From Sphingobacteriaceae bacterium (GTDB lineage Bacteria; Bacteroidota; Bacteroidia; Sphingobacteriales; Sphingobacteriaceae), in assembly GCA_029266635.1 (NCBI GenBank), contig JAQSWM010000002.1:124001-188000 (forward strand): a DNA stretch of 64,000 bases, read 5' to 3'. Both the position numbers and the translations under genes were made by a program. The notes beneath the pieces were generated by a model. The model made no database searches and was not told the origin of the DNA. It was given only the letters and a program-made list of their open reading frames with translations. Positions within the stretch are counted from its first letter, which is position 1, and each line of letters begins with the position of its first letter. Of this stretch, positions 6,601 through 23,549 are shown piece after piece.

Positions 6601-6817
6601 GCTAGGATATAAGGTACCGGAGAATTTTGCAACGGCGATTGGTTTAAAAGGATTGCGGGTGTATGCGAATGCTTATAATCTTATGTCATGGTCAAAGGTG
6701 TTCAACAGGTATGGAGTTGACCCAGAAGTGGCAAGAGGCGGTGGAAATAATGGCTATGTGTTGCCTTACCCTCAGTCAGCTATATTCAATTTAGGTCTTA
6801 ACGTTTCAGTAAAATAA
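3668..6817 (+). CDS. SusC-like TonB-dependent outer membrane receptor
   Basis: Complete SusC/RagA-type receptor of 1049 residues. Order of parts: signal peptide (1-22, ending AQAQ), CarboxypepD_reg-like domain (about 26-100), TonB-box-like 'EDVVVVGYG' (about 104-112), plug (about 118-235) with the SusC signature 'SILKDAAATAVYGVKGANG', then a beta-barrel to the C-terminus. The late 'DLNGDGVITDDDRG' loop is also typical. The SusD gene overlaps or abuts its stop codon, showing a coupled pair. This is the second SusC/SusD pair in tandem, 24 bases after the first, so the locus probably makes one long transcript. Substrate unknown; import of an oligosaccharide is inferred from family and context. 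Confidence 0.96.
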   Translation: MKNLYKILLSVLFLYGPVIAQAQTRVVTGVVKDDQGTLPGITILEKSTPTNGVVTDVEGKFRITLHGNSNVIIVKSLGYVTKEVNVAGKQNVSVTLAMDARGLEDVVVVGYGTQKKIDVTGSISTVTRNDIQQTPSASIQNALTGKLPGFFSQQRSGRPGDDGAEFFVRGISTFGPAQTPLILVDDIEFSYDDFSNIDPNEVQSLSILKDAAATAVYGVKGANGVILVTTRRGQVGAPRVNFRTEFGLQMPMHVPKILDAANMAILRNEALKNDATISGGAYTPDFTDADIELFRNGQDPYGHPNIDWYNTLFKKTAPINKNNLDLSGGSDAVQYFVSMGYETQDGILRDFKGGDEVDNNFRYNRFNFRSNVDIKANKSLSFKFDFSGANAITNQPQIGTGVFGEIYNYEGLTPFVYPIYNPNGSFGFTDPNRPQPGNNVVGRISTGGYDRERQNIMSLNGSVIQKLDFLTKGLSAKAMVSLSNSNKATRSQTVSNFPSFYYNPTTGTYTPRNANIYRVDPYSLSYAPGLPRRQSTIQAHLNYGRSFGNHNVNALVLYNQNTKVKAVLDNNDVETERSYIPENFRGVSSRLAYNFSNKYLIEFNGSYNGSDRFAEGHRFGFFPAVSGGWVLSEENFIKKNAEFISLFKLRGSWGIVGSDYIKDDKNSYEELYTRGGAYSFGETNKNYTSIVPGSLANLNVTWEKERKAEIATDFALFNGKVSGTAAVFDNKRYDILANRNTVPSYFGVQNAQLPPLNLGIVSNKGYEFELVYNGKIGKDFGFNLKGNYSYAKNKILEIDEVPPRYEYQRQTGRSVGEVQGFIWDGYYSVAEAADPSVPKYIGSTTAAGGPGTTLPGFLKYRDLNGDGVITDDDRGYFGDSNLPTTIIGFATGFTYKRVSLNVLLQAGLGSDVQIGYNFSVPFKGNLQAIHLDRWTPETAATATFPALVSNFHGTYMTTASNSSFWAVSGNYLRVKSVELGYKVPENFATAIGLKGLRVYANAYNLMSWSKVFNRYGVDPEVARGGGNNGYVLPYPQSAIFNLGLNVSVK

Positions 6818-6825
6818 TGTTAGTT

Positions 6826-8631: not shown

Positions 8632-8655
8632 AACGAGAATACTTTAAAAAGAAAA

Positions 8656-8693
8656 AGCCGGTTCAGCATCAAGCTGGACCGGCTCTTTTGTTT
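8656..8693 (+). terminator. Rho-independent terminator after SusC/SusD operon, possibly bidirectional
   Basis: A 12-base stem (AGCCGGTTCAGC / GCTGGACCGGCT, one G-T wobble) with a 5-base loop is followed by cttttgttt and preceded by a run of A. The A-run gives it a T-tract on the minus strand too, so it can also terminate the convergent sulfatase gene that ends at 8715. Confidence 0.85.
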
Positions 8694-8714
8694 GGCAGAG
8701 GCTGGCACGCCGGG

Positions 8715-10250
8715 CTATTTGCCTTCGTGGCCGCGAACCGTGTTTAATACGTGCAACAGTTGAGCAGCCTTTTCGGGCTCCTTAGAAATAAGGTTATTTT
8801 TTTCACCCGGATCGCGGCTGAGCTTGAAAAGTTGCCCCTTTGGATCATTTCCCAACTCAATGTTCGTGTTAGCCATCACTTGTGGCCCCTTGTTCGGCTC
8901 AATGTATTTCCACTTGCCTTGCAGGATAGACAACGTGTTGTTTAATGATTGCTCCACAACATAGCTCCGTTCTTTGTGCGATTTTCCTAAAAACGAATTA
9001 AGCATATTGAAGCTGTCGGGAGCATCGCCTTGCGCTATGGCTTGTCCTGTCAAAGAAGCTAGTGAAGCGTAAAGATCTACCTGGCTCATCAGGGCATCAG
9101 ATATTTTGTTGCTTTTCACATGCCCTGGCCACCGCACGATAAAAGGCACTCTCGTCCCCGCATCAAATGCACTGTACTTTCCTCCTCTGAACTCGCCCGA
9201 CGGCGTATGCCCGTTCAACATCTCCACAGCCTTGTCCTTATATCCGTCGTCCACCACAGGGCCGTTATCGCTGCTGAATATTACCATCGTTTTGTCTGTC
9301 AAATTCAACCGGTCCAGCGTTTTCAGCACTTCACCAACGCTCCAGTCCAGCTCAAGAATGGCATCGCCCCGCGGGCCCATTCCACTCTTTCCGAGAAAAC
9401 GCGAATTCGGCAACCGTGGCACGTGGATCTGGTGCGTGGCAAAATAAAGAAAGAACGGTCCGTTTTGATGATCTTCTATAAATCTGTTTGCTCGGTTGGT
9501 AAACACATCTGCCATATCCTCATCAATCCAGCGGGCTTTTTTGCCACCGCTCATCCATCCGATACGGCTAACACCATTTATGATTGTATTGTCATGACCA
9601 TGTGAATACATCATCTTCAACAGCTCAGGATTTTCTGACCCTGTGGGCTCATTGCCGATCTTGTTTTTGTAACTAACCATGATCGGGTCGGCGGGATCAA
9701 GATCAACAATACGGTGATTCTCCATGTACACACAAGGAACACGATCGCCAGTTGCGGGCATTAAAAAGCAATAGTTAAATCCTACCTCCAGTGGTCCGGG
9801 AGTTATGTCGCCATTCCAGTTTGGCCCTCCCGCCGGACCAAGCCCCAAATGCCATTTTCCGACCGCACCTGTATAATAGCCGGCTTTTTGCAACATGCCC
9901 GGAAGTGTGGTGATGTTAGTGGGAATGATGAGCGCTGCATCGCCCGGAGCTATGCCGGTACCTGTTTTTCGCCAGGCGTATTTCCCTGTTAAAAGCGAAA
10001 AACGTGCCGGAGTGCAGGTTGATGACGTGGTGTGGGAGTTTGTAAACTTCAAACCTTCTGCAGCTATCCGGTCAATGTTTGGAGTTTTGATTTTGGTAGC
10101 ACCGTAAGTGCTGATGTCACCGTATCCCAGGTCATCCGTGTAGATAATCACGATGTTTGGTTTCGATGCTGTTGTTTGGGCATCAACAGAAATCGCAGTA
10201 AGCGAAAAGAAGCATACTGTTAAACAGGATTTGAAGTTCAATTTTTTCAT
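8715..10250 (-). CDS. Secreted arylsulfatase (formylglycine sulfatase, S1 family)
   Basis: Hydrolyses sulfate esters, probably from a carbohydrate in the periplasm. It is 511 residues with a signal peptide (ends VDAQ, about residue 25). Active-site features: metal-binding 'IIYTDDLGYGD' (Asp39/Asp40), the formylglycine motif Cys79-Thr-Pro-Ala-Arg83, 'GKWHLGLG' and 'SSDNGPV' carrying further metal or sulfate ligands. The Cys form requires a maturase (anSME or FGE) that is not in this window. It is the second gene of a minus-strand pair, starting 2 bases after the TonB-receptor stop, so sulfatase and receptor are co-expressed. Exact sulfatase subfamily and substrate cannot be assigned by eye. 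Confidence 0.94.
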   Translation of the reverse strand: MKKLNFKSCLTVCFFSLTAISVDAQTTASKPNIVIIYTDDLGYGDISTYGATKIKTPNIDRIAAEGLKFTNSHTTSSTCTPARFSLLTGKYAWRKTGTGIAPGDAALIIPTNITTLPGMLQKAGYYTGAVGKWHLGLGPAGGPNWNGDITPGPLEVGFNYCFLMPATGDRVPCVYMENHRIVDLDPADPIMVSYKNKIGNEPTGSENPELLKMMYSHGHDNTIINGVSRIGWMSGGKKARWIDEDMADVFTNRANRFIEDHQNGPFFLYFATHQIHVPRLPNSRFLGKSGMGPRGDAILELDWSVGEVLKTLDRLNLTDKTMVIFSSDNGPVVDDGYKDKAVEMLNGHTPSGEFRGGKYSAFDAGTRVPFIVRWPGHVKSNKISDALMSQVDLYASLASLTGQAIAQGDAPDSFNMLNSFLGKSHKERSYVVEQSLNNTLSILQGKWKYIEPNKGPQVMANTNIELGNDPKGQLFKLSRDPGEKNNLISKEPEKAAQLLHVLNTVRGHEGK

Positions 10251-10252
10251 AG

Positions 10253-12712
10253 CTAAAATTCTTTATCGCCAATTTCGCTTGTTGGAAGCTTCGCTTTTCC
10301 TGAAAGCTTGTTCAGGTTGAAGCTCAAGTTGAGCAGGAATACATCCGTCTCGTAGATGTAATTTGTAGTGGTATAAAAGTTTGCTCCGCTTGTGGTGATT
10401 CGTTGCTTGTTAGCATCCATAAAGCCTAAGTTCATGTTTTGCCATTGCAGCATCGCTGAAAAACGGCCATCGCCAAAGGTTTTCTTAAGAGAAGTGTTTG
10501 GGATCAGAAACCGTGAGTCTTTGCCCTGGGCAGTTGGCCTTTCGGAAAGATAATTCACATTGCCCTGGAACGTCCATTTTGCTCCCAGATCAAAACTTGA
10601 ATTTGCATTGATTGAATATGCCCAATCTGAATTAGAGATAGAAGATGCAACTCCAAGGATGTTTAAGTTACCGTTGATTTTGTAATTGTAAATATTGGTT
10701 CCCAGGTACAAGCTCCACCATTTTGCCGGCTTAATGTTCGTTCCGGCTTCAAAGCCAAAGAGACGGGCTTTTTCCGCATTCGTGAACACACGGTTCAGAA
10801 TAGTGTCTGCATAAACGCTGTTTACACGTTGTATCGGGTTCTTGATGTTCTGGAAATAGAACGTAGAAAAAAATGAGCCACTTGAGAAGGTGTGATTGAT
10901 TCCAAGTTCGGCAAGATCAACAAACTGGGGCAGCAGGTCAGGATCGCCTTGCTCCAGTGTTTCAGAGTGTTCCCTTTCGGGGATAGGATTCAGCTCGTAG
11001 TTGTTATTTCGTTGCACGCGTTTGCTGTACCCGGCCTTAGCACTCCATGAAGGATTAAATGTGTAAAGCAGATTTGCCGATGGGAACAGGTTTGAAAGAT
11101 TCAGGAGGTGCTTATTTGGATCGTATGAAAGATCAACCTCGCGATCGGCAATTTCATAGCGCAAACCGGCAACGTATTGTAGTTTATCAGCCTTTCCTGA
11201 ATACTGCGAATAGACAGAATTGATCACGTTTTTAGCCTTCGCCGTTCCTCTAAACCGGGCAATATCGGTTTGTGAAGTTGCCGGGTTAACTGAATAATCA
11301 AATGTGCCGTTCTGTGTATCATATCTGAACTGGTAGCCACTTTCCAGCTTGCCTTTGCCAAGAGGAACAGAATGGTCAAGCTTTAATCTATAACCTTCAA
11401 TCGGGTTTTCGTACGGGTTGAAAACCTGTTGGATCATTTGTCCGGTGACAGGATATTTAAGATTGCGGTTGTTGGTGTTTCCATACAAACTCGCTTTTTC
11501 ATACAAGCCGGAAGCAGTGAGCGTGGATTTGTTTTTGAAGGTGTGTGTATAATCCAGGTTTCCTAAAGTGAAATTGCCTTGCTTGGTTTGCAGGTTGGAA
11601 TTAAAATAAGTGGTGCTTTTTATCAAAGCATTCGTGTTCAGATTTGAAGTGGAATTGGTGTAAAGGATGTCTGCTAAACGCGATTGAAACCTTTTTCCTG
11701 CAAAGAATCCAGCAGAAATAGAATTGCTTGCATTCGGGGTATAAACTACTGAAGCCCGGCCAGCATAGTTATATTTATCAAAGCTTCTTTCACCGTTTGA
11801 AGGAAAGCGGGTGATGGTGTTATTTGCCAGATTTTTGGTGTAAACTTCGCCTTCGCGATAACCGGCGTTATCGTTTCTCGTGTAATTTCCTCCTACAGAA
11901 ACATCCCAGCTTTTCTTGCGCATGTTCAACGTAAGGTCTGCGCCGTAGCGTTGCGGCTGTTCAGTGTTGCCGTAATCTGTTGTGCTGGGCAGGCCAACCA
12001 TCGCATTTGCAGCGAGGCTCAAACCATCGTTTGCGCCTTTTTTGGTCACGATGTTGATGATCCCGGCCTTTCCATCCGGATCGTATTTAGCGGAAGGAGC
12101 CGTAATTAGCTCAATATTTTCCAGCGCATTAGCCGGAAGCTGGCTCAATACCGTTTGCGCATCCGTCAACACAGGCTTACCATTCACAAGAACCAAAAAT
12201 CCCGTTGCGCCCCGTACACTGATCTCGCCCTCGCCATTCACCGATACAGAGGGCAGGTTTTTCAGAACGTCTATCGCGGAACCGCCTTTTGCCGACTGAA
12301 ATTGATCAGCCCGGTACGTTTGTTTGTCGATTTTATTTAAGGCGTTTATCTGCTGTCCGGTAACCGTAACTTCGTTCAAAAGCTTGCTGCCGGGCTTCAA
12401 CAGAATCTGCCCCAGGTTAAGCTGTCCGCCCGAAACAGTTATGTTTCGCACATATTTTGTTTCATAGCCAATAAAGACGGCTTTAAGCGAGTAGGTTCCC
12501 GCTGCAATTTTCGAAAGCGTAAACTCTCCCTTTTCGTTAGCAAGTGTTCCGGCAACTACCGTAGAGTCTGATGTTTTTAACAGGGCGATGCTTGCATAGT
12601 CTAAAGGCGATTTGCTTTGTTCGTCTACAACTATACCCTTTACAGAACCCGTTTGTGCTATTGAAAACTGAAAGGAAAGAAGAGCGATAGCAATAAGTAG
12701 AAATTTTTTCAT
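10253..12712 (-). CDS. TonB-dependent receptor / outer membrane beta-barrel protein with CarboxypepD_reg domain
   Basis: Outer membrane transporter of 819 residues that is not SusC-like: it has no SusD partner and ends in the 'outer membrane beta-barrel family' fold common in Sphingobacteria. Signal peptide 1-20 (ends SIAQ); CarboxypepD_reg-like domain about 24-105; plug about 118-230, including 'GGSAIDVLKNLPSVSV', 'GKPVLTDAQTVLSQLPA' and 'GIINIVTKK'; barrel to the C-terminus. The minus-strand gene is followed after 2 bases by the sulfatase, a clear two-gene operon. It may import the desulfated product or siderophore-like compounds; the linkage to a sulfatase favours a glycan fragment, but this is inference. 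Confidence 0.9.
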   Translation of the reverse strand: MKKFLLIAIALLSFQFSIAQTGSVKGIVVDEQSKSPLDYASIALLKTSDSTVVAGTLANEKGEFTLSKIAAGTYSLKAVFIGYETKYVRNITVSGGQLNLGQILLKPGSKLLNEVTVTGQQINALNKIDKQTYRADQFQSAKGGSAIDVLKNLPSVSVNGEGEISVRGATGFLVLVNGKPVLTDAQTVLSQLPANALENIELITAPSAKYDPDGKAGIINIVTKKGANDGLSLAANAMVGLPSTTDYGNTEQPQRYGADLTLNMRKKSWDVSVGGNYTRNDNAGYREGEVYTKNLANNTITRFPSNGERSFDKYNYAGRASVVYTPNASNSISAGFFAGKRFQSRLADILYTNSTSNLNTNALIKSTTYFNSNLQTKQGNFTLGNLDYTHTFKNKSTLTASGLYEKASLYGNTNNRNLKYPVTGQMIQQVFNPYENPIEGYRLKLDHSVPLGKGKLESGYQFRYDTQNGTFDYSVNPATSQTDIARFRGTAKAKNVINSVYSQYSGKADKLQYVAGLRYEIADREVDLSYDPNKHLLNLSNLFPSANLLYTFNPSWSAKAGYSKRVQRNNNYELNPIPEREHSETLEQGDPDLLPQFVDLAELGINHTFSSGSFFSTFYFQNIKNPIQRVNSVYADTILNRVFTNAEKARLFGFEAGTNIKPAKWWSLYLGTNIYNYKINGNLNILGVASSISNSDWAYSINANSSFDLGAKWTFQGNVNYLSERPTAQGKDSRFLIPNTSLKKTFGDGRFSAMLQWQNMNLGFMDANKQRITTSGANFYTTTNYIYETDVFLLNLSFNLNKLSGKAKLPTSEIGDKEF

Positions 12713-12905: not shown

Positions 12906-13790
12906 ATGATAAACAGAAGATCATTCCTGCAGCAATCGGCTCTTTTAGGTGCCGGTGTTTTATTTGCATCATGCCGCACTTCTTTAGTTTCTTCCAAGCC
13001 GTTCAATAAAATAGGTTTGCAGTTGTACACTCTTCGCGGTGAGATTCTAAAAGATCCCCGGGGAGTTATAGCGGCCGTAGCGAAAGCAGGGTACGATGAT
13101 ACCGAAACTTACGATTACAATCTGAAAAACAAATTCTTCGGATTAACGCCAAAAGAATTCAATCAGCTGTTAAAAGATAACGGACTGACATCTTACAGCG
13201 GTCATTATGGGATGGAGCAGCTTATCACCAAAGGCTCGTTCGATGACCTGAAAACATATATTGATGCAGCCAGGATCATTGGGCAGGAGTACATTGTACT
13301 TCCTCACCTGGCGCCAGCCTTGCGCTCCACTTCAGATCAGTGGAAAGCAATTGCCGAGAAATGCAACAAAGCGGCGGAATTATGTGAAGCTTCCGGCTTG
13401 CACTTTGGCTATCACAACCACGATTTTGAGTTTCAGAAACTTGCCGATGGTGGTGTGGGATACGACATCCTGTTAAAGAATACCGATCCCAAGTTGGTCA
13501 AATTTGAACTTGATTTGTATTGGGCTGTCCGGGCAGGGCATAACCCGCTCACTTTGTTCCAGCAAAATCCCGGAAGGTTCGTTATGTGGCATGTAAAAGA
13601 CATGAGCAAAGGCGATCCGAAAATCCAGACCGAAGTAGGGAAAGGAACTATTAACTTTAAAGAGATTTTTGCACAGGCGAAGTTAGCGGGCACAAAGCGC
13701 TTCTATGTTGAACACGAAAATAACTACGTGCCCAATCCGCTTGACAGCATTGTAACAAGTGCCAGCTATGTGAAAAGCAATTTGATGTAG
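12906..13790 (+). CDS. Secreted sugar phosphate isomerase/epimerase-like TIM-barrel protein
   Basis: AP endonuclease 2/xylose isomerase-like TIM barrel of 294 residues, carrying an export signal unlike true cytosolic isomerases. The start is set at ATG 12906 because 'MINRRSFLQQSALLGAG' begins a Tat-like/lipoprotein signal ending in FASC (Cys23); an upstream in-frame TTG at 12846 would add 20 unlikely residues. Probable metal ligands: Glu175 in 'HNHDFEF', Asp203 in 'ELDLYW', His229 in 'WHVKDM', Glu269 in 'YVEHE'. Exported members beside DUF1080 and Gfo/Idh proteins are thought to act on 3-keto sugars or 3-keto-glycosides. The next gene starts 4 bases after the stop. Confidence 0.88.
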   Translation: MINRRSFLQQSALLGAGVLFASCRTSLVSSKPFNKIGLQLYTLRGEILKDPRGVIAAVAKAGYDDTETYDYNLKNKFFGLTPKEFNQLLKDNGLTSYSGHYGMEQLITKGSFDDLKTYIDAARIIGQEYIVLPHLAPALRSTSDQWKAIAEKCNKAAELCEASGLHFGYHNHDFEFQKLADGGVGYDILLKNTDPKLVKFELDLYWAVRAGHNPLTLFQQNPGRFVMWHVKDMSKGDPKIQTEVGKGTINFKEIFAQAKLAGTKRFYVEHENNYVPNPLDSIVTSASYVKSNLM

Positions 13791-13794
13791 TTGT

Positions 13795-15441
13795 ATGAGA
13801 CCAACAAAGTTGAGTGGTTTTGCAGCTTTAGCGGCATCGTTATTATTCAGCATAAGCGGATTTTCGCAAAGTTCGCCAGTGCTGCCACGCCTTGAGAAAC
13901 GAGGAGAGGCCACTCAACTAATCGTCGACAATAAGCCATACCTGATCTTAGGCGGAGAACTTCGCAATTCCAATACTTCGAACTTGGAATATTTGCAGCC
14001 TCTGCTGCCTAAGCTAGCTAAAATGAACATGAACACGGTGCTTGCGCCGGTCACATGGGATTTGATGGAGCCTGAGGAGGGCAAGTTCGACTTTACCCTG
14101 GTTGATGGTTTGCTGAAACAAGCTCGTGAAAGCAAGCTTCGGGTTGTTGTACTATGGTTCGGGACATGGAAGAATGGCCTGTCGCACTATGTCCCCGACT
14201 GGGTGAAGAAGGATTTTCGTCGTTTTCCACGGGTAAAACTCGCCAGCGGTAAAAGCACAGAAACAGTAAGCGTATTCAGCAAAGAAGCTTTGAGCGCAGA
14301 TACGAAGGCTTTTACTGCTCTAATGAAACACCTTAAGGTTGCAGATGCTGCATACCGTACGGTGATCATGGTGCAGGTAGAAAATGAGGTCGGCATCCAC
14401 GGCGACACACGCGATCGCTCAACTATTGCAAACACCGCTTTTTCTCAGCCCGCTCCTGCAGAATTGATCGCGGGCTTGAAAAAATATCAAACAGAACTCC
14501 AGCCCGCTGTAAAAAACCTTTGGGAAGCCGTTGGATCGAAAACAAATGGAAGCTGGGAAGATATCTTCAGCAAAAATTTGGTTACTGACGAGATATTTAT
14601 GGCATGGAACTACGCAAAATATATCAATCAGGTAGCAGCGGCAGGTAAGGCACAATATGACCTTCCGATGTATGTAAACGCATGGTTGCCGCAAAATCAC
14701 CCAAAAGGTGGGCCGGTGGCCAGTATGCACGACATCTGGAGAGTTGGTGCTCCGCAAATCGATTTTTTTGCGCCAGACATTTACAAAGCAGAATTTAAGC
14801 AAGTTGTCGCTAATTATTATCACACATGGAAGCCGCTATTTATACCTGAATCGGTTGCCGACTCGGCTGGAGCATCAAATGCGTATTATGTAATTGGGAA
14901 ATATAAAGCCTTGGGTTTTTCTCCGTTCGCAGTTGAAGATCGGATTACAGGCTATGACGAGCCGATTCCAGTGGCCTATAAAGAATTGTCAGACATGGCG
15001 CCAGTAATTCTTGAGGCGCAGCGCAAGAGCACTATTACCGCAGTAACCGTTAATAATGGCAATCCTGTGGACACTATAGAAATGGGAGGGTACAGGCTTG
15101 AGGTGCGCCCCCGGATAACAAGAGGCAAAACGCCCGCGGCATCGTCCGGTTACGGTCTGATTATCAATTCCGGTCCGGATGAATTCATACTTTCTGGTTT
15201 AAACTTTGAGGTTTCCTTTACACCGGCAACGCCGGGTCCGCAGATGGCAGGGCTCGCTTCCGTTTGGGAAGGCACGTTCAAGAATGGGGAATGGGTCCCA
15301 GGAAGGAAGCTTAATGGCGACGAGGTTATGGTAGGCTACGATTTGGCTAAACAAGCTGCCAATAATAAAACGGGTACAGTAGCAAGAATTCAAAATAATG
15401 CTATTGGTACCTTGAAAGTGAAGTTGTATAGGTTCGAGTAG
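13795..15441 (+). CDS. GH35-like (DUF5597-type) beta-galactosidase candidate
   Basis: Secreted glycosidase of 548 residues with a signal peptide (ends SGFSQ, about residue 25). The TIM barrel spans about 40-360. 'VQVENEVG' (residues 193-200) gives the clan GH-A acid/base Glu198, and 'LFIPES' (about 348-353) gives the probable nucleophile Glu352. 'LAPVTWDLMEPEEGKFDF' is the family's early barrel motif. The C-terminal 150 residues look like the beta-rich DUF5597 domain found in this GH35-related group. It starts 4 bases after the isomerase-like gene, hence the same operon. Beta-galactosidase activity is the best guess, but related proteins act on other beta-linked sugars. Confidence 0.85.
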   Translation: MRPTKLSGFAALAASLLFSISGFSQSSPVLPRLEKRGEATQLIVDNKPYLILGGELRNSNTSNLEYLQPLLPKLAKMNMNTVLAPVTWDLMEPEEGKFDFTLVDGLLKQARESKLRVVVLWFGTWKNGLSHYVPDWVKKDFRRFPRVKLASGKSTETVSVFSKEALSADTKAFTALMKHLKVADAAYRTVIMVQVENEVGIHGDTRDRSTIANTAFSQPAPAELIAGLKKYQTELQPAVKNLWEAVGSKTNGSWEDIFSKNLVTDEIFMAWNYAKYINQVAAAGKAQYDLPMYVNAWLPQNHPKGGPVASMHDIWRVGAPQIDFFAPDIYKAEFKQVVANYYHTWKPLFIPESVADSAGASNAYYVIGKYKALGFSPFAVEDRITGYDEPIPVAYKELSDMAPVILEAQRKSTITAVTVNNGNPVDTIEMGGYRLEVRPRITRGKTPAASSGYGLIINSGPDEFILSGLNFEVSFTPATPGPQMAGLASVWEGTFKNGEWVPGRKLNGDEVMVGYDLAKQAANNKTGTVARIQNNAIGTLKVKLYRFE

Positions 15442-15544
15442 GCTTAAAAATTCAAGGTTGCGTAACTGAGACAAACAGCTGATCATTCGTTTACGAGAGC
15501 ATTCCAAGTCTCGACGGCAATTAAGTAGAAGTGCCAGTTGATTT

Positions 15545-15567
15545 TTATAACGGTAATTTCGTTATAA
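15545..15567. promoter_or_regulatory. Inverted repeat TTATAACG-N7-CGTTATAA, candidate operator
   Basis: Eight-base arms separated by seven bases lie about 77 bases before the DUF1080 start codon. The same half-site CGTTATAA recurs at 15619-15626, closer to the start. Three copies of one octamer in a 200-base leader suggest a binding site for a regulator of the DUF1080-oxidoreductase operon. Confidence 0.45.
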
Positions 15568-15643
15568 CAGATTTAAAATATAGCTTCCGTTTAATTGCAA
15601 ATAATTTATAATATTGGGCGTTATAAACCACAAAACATCCTTA

Positions 15644-16414
15644 ATGAAATACAGCCTTTTGGCGATTGGCGTGCTGTCATTATGCTTCAATAATGCAGTG
15701 GCACAAGAAAAGCCCAAACACGAAGACACCGAATTTTATACACCGGTTCCTAAAGTAATAACGCCCGGGGCCACACCTTCAGATGCGCCGTCTGACGCTA
15801 TAGTTCTGTTTAACGGAACGGATCTCGATCAGTGGGTTTCTACCGCTGATAGGGCTAAAAAAGCTGAATGGCTGGTGTCAAACGGAGATCTTACGGTTGA
15901 TAAAAGCAAAGGGAACATCGAAACAAAACAGGCCTTCGGGAGCTATCAGCTACACATCGAATGGAAAGAACCAGCTGTGCTTAGCGGTAAAGGTCAGGCT
16001 CGGGGCAACAGCGGCATTTTCTTAGCCTCCACCGGAAAAGGCGATGCCGGTTATGAGCTTCAGGTGTTAGATTCGTATAAAAACGATACTTATGTAAACG
16101 GCCAGGCCGGAAGTATTTACAAACAATACATCCCGCTTGTAAATGCATCGAAACCTCCAGGGCAGTGGCAGCAATATGATGTAATCTGGACTGCTCCGTC
16201 ATTTAAAGAAGACGGTTCGGTTGCGTCACCAGCCCGAGTAACCGTGTTTTACAACGGCATTTTGGTTCAAAATAACGTAGAATTAAAAGGCGAGACGGTT
16301 TATATCGGACAGCCTTTTTATAACAAACACGGTAAATCCCCCATCAAGTTGCAGGCTCATGGCGATCCAAGCGAGCCCATCAGCTTCCGCAACATCTGGG
16401 TACGCGAACTTTAA
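15644..16414 (+). CDS. DUF1080 (3-keto-disaccharide hydrolase-like) secreted protein
   Basis: Secreted concanavalin-like beta-sandwich protein of 256 residues. The start is ATG 15644, directly before a signal peptide (MKYSLLAIGV...AVAQ); an in-frame TTG at 15614 is rejected. Family motifs are 'LFNGTDLDQWV' (about 55-65), 'ARGNSGIFL' and the terminal 'PISFRNIWVREL'. DUF1080 proteins are annotated as 3-keto-disaccharide hydrolases and commonly sit beside Gfo/Idh oxidoreductases, as here (next gene 18 bases away). Likely role: cleavage or hydration of an oxidised glycoside made by the neighbouring oxidoreductase. Catalytic activity of this copy is inferred. Confidence 0.9.
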   Translation: MKYSLLAIGVLSLCFNNAVAQEKPKHEDTEFYTPVPKVITPGATPSDAPSDAIVLFNGTDLDQWVSTADRAKKAEWLVSNGDLTVDKSKGNIETKQAFGSYQLHIEWKEPAVLSGKGQARGNSGIFLASTGKGDAGYELQVLDSYKNDTYVNGQAGSIYKQYIPLVNASKPPGQWQQYDVIWTAPSFKEDGSVASPARVTVFYNGILVQNNVELKGETVYIGQPFYNKHGKSPIKLQAHGDPSEPISFRNIWVREL

Positions 16415-16432
16415 GAAAAACTAATCAACTAT

Positions 16433-17878
16433 ATGGATAAAAAGAATAACACCTCACGCCGGGATTTTATTAAAACCGGAGCGATTGCAGCCGCCGGTTT
16501 CATGATAGTTCCCCGTCATGTGTTAGGTGGGAAAGGCTTTGTAGCCCCAAGCGATAAGTTATTAATAGCCGGCGTTGGAGCAGGCGGAAAAGGGCAATCA
16601 GACATTGCCAATTTCTACAAAAGCGGAAATGCTGAGATTGCATTTTTGTGCGATGTTGACGATCGTCGTGCGGCAGAAACTGTAAAGAACTTCCCGAAAG
16701 CGAAGTATTACAAAGACTGGCGTGAAATGTATGATAAAGAAGCGAAGCATTTCGATGCGGTTTCTGTTTCAACGCCAGACCACAACCACGCTATCATTGC
16801 CATGCATGCCATGCAACGCGGCAAACACGTGTATGTTCAAAAGCCGTTGACTCACGATATTTATGAGGCCCGGATGCTTACCCAGGCAGCAAAAAAATAC
16901 AAAGTGGTAACCCAGATGGGAAACCAGGGCGCATCTAACGACGGAACCCGCCAGTTGAAAGAATGGTATGATGCCGGCATCATCGGCGATGTGCATACCG
17001 TTTATGCATGGACCAACCGGCCTATCTGGCCACAAGGTATTCCATGGCCGAGCGCTGCTGCCCAGATTCCAAAAGAACTCGATTGGAATTTGTGGTTGGG
17101 CACAGCTCCTGATAAGAATTACGTAGAAAAGTTAGTTCCGTTTAACTGGCGTGGCTGGTGGGATTATGGCACAGGCGCATTAGGCGACATGGGCTGCCAC
17201 CTGGTAGAAGCTCCGTTCAGAGTGCTGGGCTTGAAATATGCAAACGATGTGCAGGCAACTGTAGGGACCGTGTTCGTAGATGCTATGAAGCAGGGATATT
17301 TCCCTGAGAGCTGCCCGCCTTCAAGCCACGCAACACTTACCTTCCCTAAAACTGAGAAAACCAAAGGGCCTATTACCCTCCACTGGATGGATGGCGGTAT
17401 TCAGCCAGAGCGCCCGGAAGAGTTGGGAGCAAATGAATTATTTGGTGACGGCAAAAACGGAACCTTGTTCATCGGAACAAAAGGCAAAATGATGGCAAGC
17501 ACCTACGGCGCAAACGCACGGCTGCTTCCGTTGAGCCGCAATCAGGAAGTTAAAGTGCCTCAAACCATCACCCGGGTTCCCGGCGAAGCGGATGGCCACT
17601 ACGCACAGTGGGTGAATGCAGCTATTGCAGGCTACGGCAAACATGAGCTAAGCTCGCCGTTCGAAGTTGCAGGTCCATTGACTGAAGCGCTTTTGATGGC
17701 TAACCTCGCTATCCGCGGATACGATATCCAAAAACCTAAAAAGGATGGTAAAGGTGTAGATTATCCTGGAAGGTTCGTGAAGTTCCTTTGGGATAATGAG
17801 AACATGAAGGTTACCAACGTTGACGAAGCTAACCAGTTTGTAAAAAGGCAGTATCGCCAGGGCTGGAGCCTCACCTAA
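16433..17878 (+). CDS. Tat-exported Gfo/Idh/MocA family oxidoreductase
   Basis: NAD(P)-dependent sugar oxidoreductase of 481 residues with a twin-arginine signal ('SRRDFIKTGAIAAAGF'), so it probably folds with cofactor before export. Rossmann motif GVGAGG (47-52) and the dehydrogenase motif 'VQKPLTH', where Gln136 replaces the usual Glu of EKP and Lys137 is kept. Members of this exported group are proposed to oxidise or reduce C3 of glycosides. The DUF1080 gene is 18 bases upstream and a strong terminator follows, so the two make an operon. Substrate unknown; a retained cofactor outside the cytoplasm is the odd feature of the family. Confidence 0.92.
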   Translation: MDKKNNTSRRDFIKTGAIAAAGFMIVPRHVLGGKGFVAPSDKLLIAGVGAGGKGQSDIANFYKSGNAEIAFLCDVDDRRAAETVKNFPKAKYYKDWREMYDKEAKHFDAVSVSTPDHNHAIIAMHAMQRGKHVYVQKPLTHDIYEARMLTQAAKKYKVVTQMGNQGASNDGTRQLKEWYDAGIIGDVHTVYAWTNRPIWPQGIPWPSAAAQIPKELDWNLWLGTAPDKNYVEKLVPFNWRGWWDYGTGALGDMGCHLVEAPFRVLGLKYANDVQATVGTVFVDAMKQGYFPESCPPSSHATLTFPKTEKTKGPITLHWMDGGIQPERPEELGANELFGDGKNGTLFIGTKGKMMASTYGANARLLPLSRNQEVKVPQTITRVPGEADGHYAQWVNAAIAGYGKHELSSPFEVAGPLTEALLMANLAIRGYDIQKPKKDGKGVDYPGRFVKFLWDNENMKVTNVDEANQFVKRQYRQGWSLT

Positions 17879-17900
17879 GATTCAAATAGGAGAACAAAAA

Positions 17901-17930
17901 AAGCCGGGCATGCCCGGCTTTTTTTGTTTT
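17901..17930 (+). terminator. Rho-independent terminator
   Basis: Perfect 20-base palindrome (AAGCCGGGCA/TGCCCGGCTT) followed by a T-rich tract and preceded by six A. It closes the oxidoreductase operon and may also serve the convergent unknown gene ending at 17969. Confidence 0.92.
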
Positions 17931-17968: not shown

Positions 17969-18316
17969 CTAGTTTAATATCTCGCCCTGGAAAACCAGTT
18001 GTCCGCTTTTGATAACGAAATTGTCTCCTGCAGCGGGTTGCCCCGAATTGCCATAAGGATCGAAAGAAACATAATAGATGCCTCCAATTTTCACAAATAC
18101 AATATCTGAATAGCTACGGTTATCAAAGTGATCTAGCAAGTTTAATTCCCAAACCTGGCTGAAAACCAACTCTACAATACAAGGTTCAGGTTTTTTATCA
18201 ATCAACCTTTTTACCTTAAGCCGTAATACAAGCTGGGCTTCTTTAAAGTTGCAAGTCAGGCTTTCAACTGCTCCGTCGTTTAAACTATACTGTCGCTTAA
18301 AGTCTTCCAGTAACAT
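17969..18316 (-). CDS. Hypothetical protein, 115 residues
   Basis: I do not recognise this protein. It has no signal peptide or membrane segment, is mixed alpha/beta in character, and ends in a probable beta-rich part ('IGGIYYVSFDPYGNSG', 'VIKSGQLVFQGEI'). It starts 12 bases after the NIPSNAP gene stop on the same strand, so the two are probably co-transcribed. A cytosolic accessory or immunity-like role cannot be told apart from sequence. Confidence 0.75.
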   Translation of the reverse strand: MLLEDFKRQYSLNDGAVESLTCNFKEAQLVLRLKVKRLIDKKPEPCIVELVFSQVWELNLLDHFDNRSYSDIVFVKIGGIYYVSFDPYGNSGQPAAGDNFVIKSGQLVFQGEILN

Positions 18317-18328
18317 GGTCTTGCCGTT

Positions 18329-19099
18329 TTAAATATCCGAGTAGTCAGTCGGATAAAGGAACAGGATGGTGTTCTTGGATGTGTTATGCTGATACTGCGG
18401 CAAACCGCTTATTTTCGCATATTCTGGCTTGAACGCAGCCCAGTGCTTGTCCCGATCCGCTTTGTTGTTGAAGGTGGTCATATACATCAGGTTTGGCATC
18501 CGCGGACCTGAAATCACCTGTCCGTAAAACACCGCATTGAAATCCAAATTCGTAAAGATCTCGATTTCTTTGTCGTTGAACATTCCGATCTTATTTGCAG
18601 ATAGGTTTTCAGTAGCACTTTCGTAGCTTCTTAATTCATAAACACGATCTGTTTTAGGAGAAGTGAGGTTCGGCACTTGCGGTTTAGGCATACCGTCGAA
18701 GGCCTGAAGCAAGATAGATTCCATACGCACATAAGGAATGTCGTTGTAAGCCGCTTGTAAGTAGTCCTTCCCAACAGTTGCGTATTCAGCATCCTGGTTC
18801 AGCTTCTTTTCAAGAGATAAAAATTGATCGGCTTTTTTGAACGGGATGTAAACGTAAATAAGTTGCTCCAGACTGTCCTTGGCAACCGGTTTGAAAACAC
18901 CTACATTGCTGATTCCTGCCCGGTGCAAGGCTGGCAGATATGCATCCTGCAAGAACTTGTCAACACGTGCCTCCTGGGTTTTCGTTTGCAAGTGATAAAT
19001 CTTGATCTGGTAATAATAACCTTTGTGCTTTTTGGCAGAAGCCTGGTTCGATACTGTGATAAATATTAGCGTTAAAGCAAAGAGAAGTAGTCTTTTCAT
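18329..19099 (-). CDS. Secreted NIPSNAP family protein
   Basis: 256 residues from ATG at 19099 (MKRLLLFALTLIFI..., signal peptide ending near SAKK); an in-frame start 17 codons upstream lies before the promoter -33 element and is rejected. The mature part has two ferredoxin-like NIPSNAP repeats, the second starting at 'DRVYELRSYES'. 'YYQIKIYHLQTKTQEARVD' opens the first. Exported NIPSNAP proteins recur in Bacteroidota glycan loci, but their biochemical role is unknown. A clear promoter lies 20 bases upstream; the unknown 115-residue gene follows. Confidence 0.88.
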   Translation of the reverse strand: MKRLLLFALTLIFITVSNQASAKKHKGYYYQIKIYHLQTKTQEARVDKFLQDAYLPALHRAGISNVGVFKPVAKDSLEQLIYVYIPFKKADQFLSLEKKLNQDAEYATVGKDYLQAAYNDIPYVRMESILLQAFDGMPKPQVPNLTSPKTDRVYELRSYESATENLSANKIGMFNDKEIEIFTNLDFNAVFYGQVISGPRMPNLMYMTTFNNKADRDKHWAAFKPEYAKISGLPQYQHNTSKNTILFLYPTDYSDI

Positions 19100-19119
19100 T
19101 TTAATAGTTGTATAGTTTC

Positions 19120-19150
19120 CAAAGCTGCGAATTTGAGTTTGGAATAACAA
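19120..19150 (-). promoter_or_regulatory. Bacteroidota-type promoter for the NIPSNAP gene
   Basis: On the minus strand, TTG (19150-19148), a 20-base spacer, then CAGCTTTG (19127-19120), one mismatch from TAnnTTTG. The spacing matches the -33/-7 rule of Bacteroidota housekeeping sigma factors. It implies a leader of roughly 15 bases. Confidence 0.6.
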
Positions 19151-19279
19151 TCAGTAGCTCGCGAAAGAACATTGTTTTTCGCTCGAAGGAGAGCCTTTGT
19201 TACACAAATGTTACGCTCGCATCTTTCCCATTATGGTAACTTCAACTCTTATCAATCATCGTTTGTAAACCTCGTCTTA

Positions 19280-20218
19280 ATGAATAGTTTAAAACGCCTG
19301 GCGCTGCCCGTTGCGCTTTGCTCTGCACTCCTGGTAATAGGTTTTGTAGCAGCTCCAAAGCTTTTCACGTTTAAGTTCAAATCGCCGGCAGATGTTATAA
19401 GCTTCTTTCAGTATTCAGAAGACCGGATACCTTTTGTAAGCGCTCACCGGGGTGGGCCGATGAAGGGCTTCCCGGAAAACTGCATCGCAACTTTTGAAAA
19501 CACGCTGAGCAAAACGCACGCGATTTTAGAAATTGACCCACACTATACGAAAGACAGCATGATTGTGCTTATGCACGACCCAACACTCAACCGCACCAGC
19601 AACGGACAAGGCAAAATTTCCGACTACACTTTAGCCGAATTGAAGAAGTTAAAGCTCAAAGATACCGAAGGCAACTTGACTCAATATTCTATGCCTACGC
19701 TCGATGAAGCCTTAAAATGGGCCAAAGGCAAAACGCTCCTTGTGCTTGATCAGAAAGATGTTCCAATGAAAGTTCGGGTTCAAAAAGTTGTGGAGAATCA
19801 TGCTGAAAATGCTGCAATAATTATGGCATACAACTTCGCGGATGCTAAAATCGGCTACAGCCTGAACAAGAACATCGTGATGGAAGTAATGTTCAACACC
19901 GTGGAAAAGGTGAAGGAATTTGATGCTACAGGTGTTCCCTGGAAAAATGTTGTAGTTTTTGTGAGCCATACCTTACCAATTAAACGTGAGGTGTTTGATG
20001 AGATACATAAAAGAGGAGCTATGTGCATGATCGGAACCTCCAGGAACTTTGATAGAGACTTCACCACCGGTAAAAGCGACCAAAAGGTGCTTTTCGAAAA
20101 CTATGATCAGGTACTTGCTGCAGGTGCAGATATTATTGAGGCTGATCTCGGCATTGAGGCAGGCACAGCGCTGAAAAAGTATCAAAACCCGAAATCATCC
20201 AAATTCAAATTCTTTTAG
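19280..20218 (+). CDS. Glycerophosphodiester phosphodiesterase family protein (GDPD)
   Basis: 312 residues from ATG 19280; longer in-frame starts upstream run through the divergent promoter region. An N-terminal hydrophobic segment (about 6-28) exports or anchors it. Catalytic GDPD residues are visible: His56-Arg57 ('SAHRGG'), 'PENCIATFENT', Glu84 and Asp86 ('LEIDPH'), and His99 ('LMHDPTLNRT'). It would hydrolyse glycerophosphodiesters or a related phosphodiester. It precedes two sulfatases on the same strand by 15 bases, so it may remove a phosphodiester decoration from the glycan or simply be co-expressed. Confidence 0.92.
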   Translation: MNSLKRLALPVALCSALLVIGFVAAPKLFTFKFKSPADVISFFQYSEDRIPFVSAHRGGPMKGFPENCIATFENTLSKTHAILEIDPHYTKDSMIVLMHDPTLNRTSNGQGKISDYTLAELKKLKLKDTEGNLTQYSMPTLDEALKWAKGKTLLVLDQKDVPMKVRVQKVVENHAENAAIIMAYNFADAKIGYSLNKNIVMEVMFNTVEKVKEFDATGVPWKNVVVFVSHTLPIKREVFDEIHKRGAMCMIGTSRNFDRDFTTGKSDQKVLFENYDQVLAAGADIIEADLGIEAGTALKKYQNPKSSKFKFF

Positions 20219-20233
20219 CCGCTACCGATTTAA

Positions 20234-22111
20234 ATGAAAAAAATTCTTTTTGTACTATTCCTCTATTTATCGCTACAAACCTATGCACAAGACAAACCCA
20301 ATATTTTGTGGCTTGTAACTGAAGATATGAGCCCATACCTGAGCTGCTACGGGAACAAAATGATCAAAACTCCCAACCTTGATAAACTCGCAGCGGATGG
20401 CATACGTTTTACCGAGGCGCATTCAAACAGTGTACAATGTTCGCCTTCGCGTTCTACACTTGTTTCTGGCATCTATGCGATAAGCCTCGGCACCGACATG
20501 CATCGTTCGAAGAATCCTGTGCGGGATGACTTTTACTTTCCTCTTTACCTCCGTAACGCCGGCTATTACTGCGTAAACAATAACAAACAGGATTATAACA
20601 ATCAGAAAACTCCCGCCAATGTGTGGGATGTTTCCAACGGAAAAGCCGATTATCGCTCACGTCCTGATAAGTCGAAACCATTTTTTGCTCAATACAATCA
20701 GGGCATTACTCACATGACCCGTGTAATTTCGCCATTGAACGAGCGCACAGGGCCGCGAGCCGTGGCGATGAACGATGTGGATGTTCCCGCCTACATCCCC
20801 GACCTGCCGGAAGTCCGAAACGACATTTCATGGAACATGGGTGCAGTAGTGAAGATGGACGAGTGGGTGGGTAAGCAGATTGAAGATCTGAAAGCAGCTG
20901 GCGAATATGATAACACCATCATCTTCTTCTTTTCGGATCATGGTGGCACCGTGCCCCGCGGCAAGGCGTATGTGTATGAGTCCGGCACGCATGTCCCGCT
21001 GATTGTAAGCTTTCCGCCGAAATGGAAGCATCTGGCAGCATCGGTTATCCCGCAGGTTAATAACAAGCTTGTATCGTTTGTGGATTTTGCCCCTACTGTG
21101 CTGAGCCTTGCGGGAGTGCCCATTCCAGAGTTCATGCATGGCAAGCCGTTTTTCACCGAGGCAGCTAAGAAAAAAGAAAACGAGGCGCCATATCTTTTTA
21201 CATTCCGGGCAAATCAGAGCTCAAGCTACGCTCCGTCCAGAGCCATAACCGACGGCAGATATAAATTGATCTTGAACTTTCAGAGTGCTTATCCGAACGG
21301 AACCCGCCAGGATTATCAGTGGCAGATGCCGGCTCAACAAGCCTGGGATGTGGCCAACAAACAAGGAAAATTAACTTCGCCCATTTACAAGCGTTTCTGG
21401 GAGCCTGTAGAGCAATTTGAGTTTTTTGATCTGTCGAAAGACAGCATGGAAGTAAATAATCTGGCTGCTGATAAATCTTACGCTGAGGTTTTTAACCGCC
21501 TCAAGGGAGCCCTTAAATCTGAGCTGTACAAGCAAAGAGATGTTGGCTTAATGCCGCCGGCCTACAGGCAGTCGAACAAAAAGGAAGGAGATTTATACAC
21601 GCTTGTCAAAAACGGTAAGATCAACATCAACCCTGTAATTGATGCGGCAATTGTGGCTTCGGAAAGGAAGGTTGCGAACGTACCTCAGCTTATGAAGTAT
21701 TTGAAAAGCGGCGATCCATCTGTGCAATATTGGGGGGCAAGTGGGCTGTGCGGCTTGGCAAAGGTTGGGCTGATCAAGGCAATGCCTGCTGAAGCTGTTG
21801 CGGCGTTTAAATCAAAATCGCACATCGAAGAAGTAAATAATATGCTTGCGGAAGGGATGATTTACACATCCAATTCCAAAGAAGCTTTGGATTATCTGGT
21901 GAGCATTGCGGGAACCTCCGGCACCGCGGCTGCCACGCTGCAAAATGTTGGGAATAAAGCCAAGCCGGTTGCAGGTGAAATCCTAAAAATGCTTGACGAC
22001 AAAAAAGTAAAGAATAAATTCTACCTGCGTTCGGTGCTCATCAACTGCGATTTGTTGCCGTATTCGGATTTATACAAATTGGCTCCTGGCGAGAAAAAGC
22101 CTGAGTTTTAA
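20234..22111 (+). CDS. Secreted sulfatase (formylglycine type), heparan N-sulfatase-like
   Basis: 625 residues; signal peptide ends YAQ (about residue 19). Motifs: 'LWLVTEDMSPYLSCYG' with metal ligands Glu/Asp (30/31), formylglycine Cys69-Ser-Pro-Ser-Arg73, and 'FFFSDHGGTVPRGKAYVYES' containing Asp-His ligands. The 'EDMSP' form of the first metal motif, in place of 'DDLGYGD', is typical of sulfamidase-like sulfatases. A C-terminal tail (about 470-625) contains HEAT-like helices ('SGDPSVQYWGASGLCGLAK') absent from short sulfatases. The next sulfatase starts 10 bases after its stop. Substrate unresolved. Confidence 0.93.
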   Translation: MKKILFVLFLYLSLQTYAQDKPNILWLVTEDMSPYLSCYGNKMIKTPNLDKLAADGIRFTEAHSNSVQCSPSRSTLVSGIYAISLGTDMHRSKNPVRDDFYFPLYLRNAGYYCVNNNKQDYNNQKTPANVWDVSNGKADYRSRPDKSKPFFAQYNQGITHMTRVISPLNERTGPRAVAMNDVDVPAYIPDLPEVRNDISWNMGAVVKMDEWVGKQIEDLKAAGEYDNTIIFFFSDHGGTVPRGKAYVYESGTHVPLIVSFPPKWKHLAASVIPQVNNKLVSFVDFAPTVLSLAGVPIPEFMHGKPFFTEAAKKKENEAPYLFTFRANQSSSYAPSRAITDGRYKLILNFQSAYPNGTRQDYQWQMPAQQAWDVANKQGKLTSPIYKRFWEPVEQFEFFDLSKDSMEVNNLAADKSYAEVFNRLKGALKSELYKQRDVGLMPPAYRQSNKKEGDLYTLVKNGKININPVIDAAIVASERKVANVPQLMKYLKSGDPSVQYWGASGLCGLAKVGLIKAMPAEAVAAFKSKSHIEEVNNMLAEGMIYTSNSKEALDYLVSIAGTSGTAAATLQNVGNKAKPVAGEILKMLDDKKVKNKFYLRSVLINCDLLPYSDLYKLAPGEKKPEF

Positions 22112-22121
22112 AACTTATCAG

Positions 22122-23549
22122 ATGAACAAACTAACATCCAAATTCAACATAGTTTTTGCTGCTGCGCTCTTAGCCTGCGCAAGTTCCTTCGCCCAGAATA
22201 ATGCTAAACCAAACGTGATCTTCATCCTGGCAGATGATTTAGGCTATGGCGATATCGGCGTGTACGGTCAAAAGCTTATTGCAACACCTAATATTGATGC
22301 TTTGGCTGCTAACGGGATGCGATTCACCCAGTTTTACGCAGGTACTTCGGTTTGTGCCCCCTCACGTGCCTCGCTGATGACAGGCCTTCACACAGGTCAT
22401 GCACCGATCCGTGGCAACAAGGAAATGGTTCCCGAAGGACAATTCCCGATGAAAGCGTCCGCCTTCACCATCGCAGAAATGTTTAAGAACGCAGGCTACG
22501 CTACCGGCGATTTTGGCAAGTGGGGGCTTGGGTCGCCGGGATCTGAAGGCGAGCCAAACAAGCAGGGTTTTGATACTTTTTATGGCTACAACTGCCAGCG
22601 CCTTGCCCACGATTACTTCCCCGATCATTTATGGTCGAACACTAGTCGCATTGGCCTTCCGAATACGCTTGAAAAACCTGCCGTTTACGCTCCTGAGCTC
22701 ATCCAGGCACAAGCCCTCAAGTTTATAGAGGCAAATAAAAGCAAACCGTTTTTTCAATTCTTGTCCTACACACTTCCTCACGCCGGCCTGGAAGTTCCTA
22801 AAGGCGACAAGTTCTTCGAACAATACAAAAAGAAGTTCAACGAATCGCCGAAGGATGTAAAGCTGGAGAAGGTTCCGCCGACCTTGTACGCTGGCCAGCC
22901 GTATCCGCACGCTGCTTATGCTGCAATGGTTTCAAGGCTGGACATGTACGTGGGACAAGTGGTAGCTAAGTTGAAGGAGCTGGGAATTGATAAGAACACA
23001 CTCATTGTTTTCTCGAGTGATAATGGTCCACACGTTGAGGGCGGTAACGAACCTGCATTTTTTAACAGCCAAGGAGGTCTTAAAGGCGTAAAACGAGATC
23101 TATATGAAGGCGGTATCCGCGAACCGATGATCATCAGCTGGCCGGCGGTTGTGAGGAAAGGAACCACGTCAGATCACATTGGCGCTTTTTGGGATTTCTT
23201 GCCAACGTTTGCAGACATTGCTGGTCAGCCGAAGCCTTCCGGTATTGACGGGCTGTCAATTTATCCTGTACTGAAATCACAGAAAAATGCTCAGCAACAT
23301 GATTATTTGTATTGGGAGTTCCATGAGAATGGCGGGCGGCAGGCAGTGCGCATCGGGAACTGGAAAGGCGTGAAACTGGATGCCATAAAAAATCCCGATA
23401 GCCCCATTGAACTATATGATCTGTCAACAGACCGGTCAGAATCGAGCAACGTAGCGGAAAGTCATCCGGAAATAGTATCAAAGATCGCTGCCCTCATGAA
23501 AACTGCACACGTGGAAAACCCGGATTTCCCGTTCACCGCCAAGGAATAA
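22122..23549 (+). CDS. Secreted arylsulfatase (formylglycine type)
   Basis: 475 residues; signal peptide ends SSFAQ (about residue 25). Sulfatase core: 'FILADDLGYGDIGVYG' (Asp38/Asp39), formylglycine Cys78-Ala-Pro-Ser-Arg82, 'FGKWGLGSPGSEG', and 'FSSDNGPHVEGG' (about residues 298-309). C-terminal 'YLYWEFHENGGRQAVR' is the usual sulfatase C-domain motif. It lies 10 bases after another sulfatase of different subfamily, so the operon removes at least two kinds of sulfate ester. Same maturation requirement as the other two; no maturase in view. Confidence 0.94.
   Translation: MNKLTSKFNIVFAAALLACASSFAQNNAKPNVIFILADDLGYGDIGVYGQKLIATPNIDALAANGMRFTQFYAGTSVCAPSRASLMTGLHTGHAPIRGNKEMVPEGQFPMKASAFTIAEMFKNAGYATGDFGKWGLGSPGSEGEPNKQGFDTFYGYNCQRLAHDYFPDHLWSNTSRIGLPNTLEKPAVYAPELIQAQALKFIEANKSKPFFQFLSYTLPHAGLEVPKGDKFFEQYKKKFNESPKDVKLEKVPPTLYAGQPYPHAAYAAMVSRLDMYVGQVVAKLKELGIDKNTLIVFSSDNGPHVEGGNEPAFFNSQGGLKGVKRDLYEGGIREPMIISWPAVVRKGTTSDHIGAFWDFLPTFADIAGQPKPSGIDGLSIYPVLKSQKNAQQHDYLYWEFHENGGRQAVRIGNWKGVKLDAIKNPDSPIELYDLSTDRSESSNVAESHPEIVSKIAALMKTAHVENPDFPFTAKE

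Follow-up and report, generated by a model that had tools for sequence, protein, structure and literature searches.

Does the set of four genes at 12906-17878 of a Sphingobacteriaceae contig encode an oxidative route for cleaving glycosides, and does that route belong to the sulfatase-rich polysaccharide utilization locus (PUL) in which the genes lie? The window, that is, the whole stretch of 64,000 nucleotides that was analyzed, corresponds to C16:124001-188000 in our contig coordinates. The set comprises genes for an exported TIM-barrel protein, a GH35-family beta-galactosidase, a DUF1080 protein (DUF1080_A), and a Gfo/Idh/MocA oxidoreductase (GFO_A), whose start codons were refined from the sequence (Table 1). 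The original prediction had described this grouping, and Pfam and NCBIfam located all four genes exactly there, with gaps of 4 bp between the TIM-barrel and GH35 genes and 18 bp between the DUF1080 and oxidoreductase genes. We consider, with a probability of roughly 0.6, that the set is the displaced half of a non-hydrolytic 3-keto-glycoside cluster built into a large sulfatase-rich PUL.

The first gene product (12906-13790), previously called isomerase/epimerase-like, is indeed an exported TIM barrel, but structure comparison favors a 3-keto-glycoside 1,2-lyase over an isomerase or epimerase. The protein matches AP_endonuc_2 (PF01261, E 2.9e-20), and its closest solved sequences are 8tcd, 8tcs, and 8tct (phmmer best match 8tcd, E 7e-37). 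Its AlphaFold2 model (pLDDT 92.1) superimposes best on the 3-keto-beta-glucopyranoside-1,2-lyases AL1 (Z 33.2) and BT1 (Z 32.6), with a root mean square deviation of 1.6 over 247-248 residues, followed by two Parabacteroides structural-genomics entries without assigned function (Z 31.9 and 30.4). Isomerases, IolE-like proteins, and other functionally named folds score at most Z 26 in this ranking, which is a second look at Foldseek matches and so covers only folds that Foldseek had found. Among them is the Agrobacterium O-glycoside beta-eliminase AtOGE (8bvk; Z 23.8), in which Mn is bound by His132, Asp163, His189, and Glu233, His134 is the base, and the H134A variant loses all activity (PMC10628242). 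Eight residues of the present protein (E67, H100, H170, H172, E201, D203, H229, and E269), representing the AtOGE metal/base set, are invariant in orthologue alignments. The motifs HNH, ELD, and HVKD and a final E supply H170, H172, E201/D203, H229, and E269, of which H170, D203, H229, and E269 are the counterparts of the Mn site and H172 that of the catalytic histidine, as mapped by motif and spacing rather than by residue-level superposition. The two proteins thus share the HNH, ExD, H, and E set, whereas ours is exported, longer, and only about 30% identical. Because of the AL1/BT1 structure match and the invariant AtOGE residues, the gene probably encodes an exported 3-keto-glycoside 1,2-lyase (beta-eliminase).

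DUF1080_A belongs clearly to PF06439 (E 1.4e-43, 149.6 bits against a cut-off of 26.8), a family with six matches in five places in this genome of 3.6 Mb and 18 contigs. Its closest solved protein is 4qhz (E 3e-81, 56% identical), the activity of which is uncharacterized, and its modeled fold is common to the 3-keto-2-hydroxy-glucal hydratases 8v31 (AL2) and 8tda (BT2) and to 8rr2 and 9fbe (eliminase/hydratase), each with probability 1.00. Foldseek matches of the model ranking lower than DUF1080 proteins, such as CBM66 and sialidases, were disregarded as common beta-sandwich similarity. DUF1080_A is probably a 3-keto-2-hydroxy-glycal hydratase or eliminase/hydratase, with hydration its likeliest role and hydrolysis or a double role possible. 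A second DUF1080 protein encoded upstream (DUF1080_B) is only 24% identical to it.

GFO_A matches NF058561 (BT_2158_fam) with E 8e-146 and 486 bits, and its best PDB matches are 8tdf (E 4e-93) and 8tdh (E 3e-90), the next family following at E 2e-13. BT2158 is a periplasmic glycoside 3-dehydrogenase required for the use of trehalose, leucrose, and palatinose (PMC11300592), and GFO_A is probably, by sequence similarity, an enzyme of the same kind. Together, oxidoreductase, lyase, and DUF1080 protein would oxidize, eliminate, and hydrate. A 3-keto-glycoside module, as proposed originally, is therefore the best reading of the set, being supported by the lyase structure match, the DUF1080 fold that includes solved hydratases, and synteny with glycoside 3-dehydrogenases.

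Nasseri et al. in 2024 reportedly described such a 3-keto pathway in Bacteroides thetaiotaomicron (BT2156-BT2160) and Alistipes (AL), made up of a 3-dehydrogenase, the lyase BT1/AL1, and the hydratase BT2/AL2. As in that pathway (PDB 8tcd, 8tct, 8tda, 8v31, and 8tdf; BT2157 is 3osd), the three enzyme types are adjacent here, the lyase fold and residues are kept, and its entries are the best structural or sequence matches of our lyase and dehydrogenase. The present set differs in that DUF1080_A falls in a distant, 4qhz-like subfamily, the Gfo/Idh protein is of the Tat type, a GH35 gene is inserted, and the surrounding sulfatase PUL also encodes a flavin/cytochrome dehydrogenase.

To place the set among its relatives, we collected 16-kb stretches around lyase or DUF1080 orthologues in the family and, for named genomes and the phylum as a whole, 20-kb stretches around a TIM-barrel gene (APE_d), and counted as a core cluster any stretch with at least four core genes. 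Apart from our own, this gave 108 clusters, some species perhaps being counted twice: 22 from the family, 30 from the phylum, and 56 from the named genomes, which included Mucilaginibacter, Pedobacter, Chitinophaga, Hymenobacter, Flavobacterium, and Algoriphagus. The core order is GMC, Gfo/Idh (A), Gluconate_2-dh3 (LacC), Gfo/Idh (C), APE_d, cytochrome c, often DUF1080_B, a carrier (MFS), a further TIM-barrel gene (APE_e), the lyase-like gene, DUF1080_A, and sometimes NIPSNAP. The grouping is not due to chance: the lyase-like gene is present in all 22 family clusters, adjoining APE_e in 19 and DUF1080_A in 17. In our genome, the core is interrupted between APE_e and the lyase-like gene by two SusC/SusD pairs, one sulfatase gene, and the gene for a TonB-dependent protein; the missing core genes lie 1.4-18 kb upstream of the window. 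With the interruption exactly at the SusC/SusD and sulfatase block, the set represents the back half, now displaced, of a core cluster conserved in Bacteroidota, the GH35 gene excepted.

Membership of the proposed set therefore holds for the lyase, DUF1080, and Gfo/Idh genes, but not for GH35. The GH35 assignment itself is sound (NF051902, 651 bits against a cut-off of 500; 8z47, E 2e-116, with 3u7v and 5jaw also matched), and E198 (NE motif) and E352 (PES motif) are candidate catalytic acids by analogy. However, judged by gene positions, with six neighborhoods examined, none of the 16 other family genomes carrying GH35 has it beside the lyase/DUF1080 genes. We thus rejected GH35 as a member of the conserved module; it is an insertion between the lyase and DUF1080 genes and an intruder in this genome.

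The front half lies in the upstream stretch L007 (C16:104001-124000), entirely on the plus strand, in the order sulfatase, Gluconate_2-dh3 subunit, GMC flavoprotein, FGE-type protein, two GH51-like proteins, sulfatase, two AP_endonuc_2, two Gfo/Idh, a third AP_endonuc_2, cytochrome c, the second DUF1080, a PF03825 carrier, and a fourth AP_endonuc_2; GH2 and another sulfatase are encoded farther upstream. Gaps in the run C16:104342-122569 do not exceed 58 bp, several genes being 1-5 bp apart and one sulfatase and one AP_endonuc_2 gene 1 bp apart, and the run mixes two sulfatases, FGE, and the two GH51-like genes with oxidative genes. The FGE carries the cysteine pair (GGSFLCSDEYCIRYR, pattern GGSxxCxxxxCxRYR) that marks an active sulfatase-maturing enzyme. 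A LacABC-type set of GMC flavoprotein, Gluconate_2-dh3 subunit, and cytochrome c (CxxCH) is also present (L007 2035-2682, 2700-4400, and 15249-15686). In Caulobacter and Pedobacter, the use of glycosides depends on, or has been linked to, LacABC and DUF1080 proteins (PMC9007349). There, as here, GMC oxidoreductase, Gluconate_2-dh3, cytochrome c, DUF1080, AP_endonuc_2, and Gfo/Idh genes occur together, whereas our cluster is divided in two and interspersed with genes for sulfatases, FGE, and GH51-like, GH2, GH35, and GH27 proteins and with two SusC/SusD pairs. Our statements on operons follow gene spacing only, because promoter and terminator scans found sites no more numerous than in shuffles.

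The GH51-like genes of this run form a tandem pair (L007 5437-6870 and 6874-8298; C16:109437-112298) that keeps the NE and E motifs. Pfam gave no match for them, and the one searched showed only distant arabinofuranosidase similarity (E about 1e-16); by sequence, they possibly represent an undescribed glycosidase family.

Around the set, the three sulfatases and two SusC/SusD pairs claimed earlier are all present, and the sulfatases carry the CxPxR motif. According to two reports, the S1_20 enzymes BT1622 and BT1636 (7ana and 7an1) remove 3-O-sulfate from Gal/GalNAc, and S1_15, including BT1624 (7oze), is linked to 6S-Gal/GalNAc (PMC10154620, PMC10154612). The locus thus resembles gut Bacteroides sulfatase PULs (BT1622 and BT1636, S1_20; BT1624 and BT3333, S1_15) in its sulfatase subfamilies, by similarity, but differs in its 3-keto pathway genes, which the excerpts of the literature at hand do not describe for those PULs. 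No sulfatase was found within about 10 kb in any of the 108 other core clusters by using a profile of the five locus sulfatases, which did detect our own stretch of the same size as a positive control; in one further stretch (L265), a sulfatase gene lies near APE_d, but the core is absent. Of the target suggested previously, a sulfated or galactose-rich glycan, the substrate part is plausible in view of the predicted 6S-Gal/GalNAc-type and 3S-Gal-type sulfatases and the GH2, GH35, and GH27 genes, but the coupling of the two systems stays hypothetical. A sulfated arabinogalactan, suggested by the GH2, GH35, GH27, and GH51-like genes, is only a guess.

What our analysis shows are the gene identities, the conserved fold and active site, the synteny, and the operon-like packing with sulfatases; from these we infer a pathway whose reactions, flux, substrate, and step order would be as follows. 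A sulfated, galactose-containing glycan would enter via the SusC/SusD pairs, be desulfated by S1 sulfatases matured by the FGE of the upstream run, and be trimmed by GH2, GH35, and GH27 enzymes. C3 oxidation of a terminal sugar would take place in the periplasm, catalyzed by the Tat-exported Gfo/Idh protein, by the GMC/Gluconate_2-dh3/cytochrome c dehydrogenase encoded upstream, or by both. The 12906-13790 protein would then remove the aglycone by Mn-dependent beta-elimination to give a 2-hydroxy-3-keto-glycal, which the DUF1080 protein would rehydrate to a 3-keto-hexose; the PF03825 carrier would import this sugar, and cytosolic Gfo/Idh and TIM-barrel enzymes would reduce or isomerize it. The S1_20-like 3-O-sulfatase would expose the very hydroxyl (O3) that a 3-dehydrogenase then oxidizes. 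It is conceivable, although we hold it only tentatively and think it rather unlikely, that one coregulated PUL in this way dismantles a sulfated galactan-like polymer or its oligosaccharides by desulfation at O3, C3 oxidation, beta-elimination, and rehydration, largely without Koshland-type glycosidases.

Several points weigh against our reading. DUF1080_A is just 18-19% identical to the solved hydratases; GFO_A fails the NF058561 equivalog cut-off (486 against 750 bits) and is a relative, not a formal equivalog; AP_endonuc_2 proteins serve many other functions; and the solved lyases are titled for glucosides, whereas the enzymes around the set point to galactose. Besides, SusC/SusD pairs and minus-strand genes keep the two half-clusters apart, so that the four-gene set is not in the transcription unit of the front half. 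The main rival, somewhat doubtful but to be taken seriously, holds that the two systems are interleaved yet independent, the 3-keto pathway being a family-wide route for small glycosides (lactose, salicin, etc.) into which a sulfatase PUL was inserted without functional coupling. The sulfatase-free core clusters speak for it, as do the roughly 50 sulfatases in the genome and the position of the SusC/SusD, sulfatase, and receptor block at the otherwise tight APE_e-lyase junction, just as an insertion would lie. It accounts less readily for the tightly packed upstream run, which holds sulfatases, FGE, and GH51-like genes together with oxidative ones, and for a GH35 gene only 4 bp from the lyase gene.

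Hydrolytic cleavage, with the TIM barrel as a keto-sugar isomerase or epimerase and DUF1080_A as a plain 3-keto-disaccharide hydrolase, would agree with the Pfam name of PF06439 (3-keto-disaccharide hydrolase), the 3'-ketolactose hydrolysis inferred by Price et al. (PMC9007349), and a barrel fold that is common to epimerases. We regard it as improbable, since AL1 and BT1 stand well above all epimerases in the structure ranking and the solved pathway DUF1080 proteins 8tda and 8v31 are titled hydratases. Far less probable still is a conventional locus for beta-galactoside hydrolysis in which GH35 would play the leading part and GFO_A would be a GH109-like NAD-dependent glycosidase. The GH109 enzyme 6t2b does occur among the PDB matches of GFO_A, and GH35 holds both candidate acids, but 6t2b matches with only E 7e-7 against 4e-93 for 8tdf, and the lyase and DUF1080 genes would be left without a role. 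A displaced half of a non-hydrolytic cluster remains our preferred reading.

Table 1. Features of the four-gene set and its neighbors in the window
Feature	Position	Strand	Remarks
SusC-like receptor 1 (part)	3-1958	+	PF00593; whole gene from C16:123115, 886 bases before window; frame continuous with L007
SusD-like lipoprotein 1	1970-3643	+	PF07980 E 1e-61
SusC-like receptor 2	3668-6817	+	Plug and CarbopepD_reg_2
SusD-like lipoprotein 2	6817-8631	+	PF07980 E 9e-56
S1 sulfatase, S1_15-like, predicted 6S-Gal/GalNAc	8715-10250	-	6s20 E 1.7e-201; 7oze E 4e-185
TonB-dependent outer-membrane protein	10253-12712	-	PF14905 E 1e-65
Exported lyase-type TIM barrel (APE_own)	12906-13790	+	ATG 12906; Tat-type RR motif and lipobox-like LFASC
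GH35-family beta-galactosidase with DUF5597	13795-15441	+	ATG 13795; Sec-type signal; Pfam Glyco_hydro_42/35
DUF1080/PF06439 protein (DUF1080_A)	15644-16414	+	ATG 15644; Pfam 3keto-disac_hyd, formerly DUF1080
Gfo/Idh/MocA oxidoreductase (GFO_A)	16433-17878	+	ATG 16433; SRRDFIK Tat-type motif; GFO_IDH_MocA E 2.6e-19
Palindromic terminator-like hairpin	17893-17928	.	16-pair stem, T run on either strand; 3' of gene run
NIPSNAP-domain protein	18329-19150	-	PF07978 E 5e-8
Glycerophosphodiester phosphodiesterase-family (GDPD) protein	19172-20218	+	PF03009 E 1.4e-20
S1 sulfatase, S1_8-like	20234-22111	+	9bba S1_8C E 6e-59
S1 sulfatase, S1_20-like, predicted 3S-Gal/GalNAc	22122-23549	+	7ana E 2e-120; 7an1 E 1.5e-119
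GH27-type alpha-galactosidase	23610-25547	+	PF16499 E 3e-49; PF17801

Terminator-like hairpin sites such as the one behind the set are not above chance in number in this region. Between the oxidoreductase and NIPSNAP genes, the minus strand encodes a 115-amino-acid protein (17969-18316) for which Pfam and NCBIfam gave no match. The NIPSNAP protein is a recurrent core-cluster neighbor, being present in 7 of the 22 clusters from the family, 4 of the 56 from named genomes, and 2 of the 30 from the phylum. We rejected NIPSNAP and GDPD as pathway enzymes, as no supporting evidence was found for either and NIPSNAP occurs in only 13 of the 108 core clusters.

Elsewhere in the genome, the sulfatase genes are densely clustered at C16:300-338 kb, C13:11-33 kb, C10:190-201 kb, and C7:277-285 kb. 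A diverged second GMC and Gluconate_2-dh3 pair (33% and 27% identical) adjoins a sulfatase and two GH2-like genes in L218 (C1:521000-540000; 4756-9706), possibly a second sulfatase/oxidative locus. In L009 on C7 (727-10446), genes for a sulfatase, an SMP-30-like lactonase, an aldolase, a galactonate-type dehydratase, a kinase, a GH89-like protein, and a DUF1080 protein are grouped and, read by eye, resemble a galactonate pathway.

The oxidation, elimination, and hydration route is known for small glycosides, glucosinolates, and disaccharides. In kind, the pathway is already on record (PMC9007349, PMC10628242). What looks new is its integration with sulfatases, since a complete set with both flavin and NAD-type dehydrogenases within a sulfatase PUL was unseen in the 108 comparable clusters, and the locus suggests that the pathway may be put to new use in the breakdown of sulfated glycans. 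Because every needed gene lies within about 55 kb, the locus is directly testable. If the route also serves sulfated polysaccharides, an entire cleavage step escapes the standard predictions of glycan use that are made for sulfatase-rich bacteria from carbohydrate-active enzymes (CAZymes). The core is also widely conserved in Bacteroidota, which implies that much metabolism of this kind is labeled merely "isomerase" or "DUF1080."

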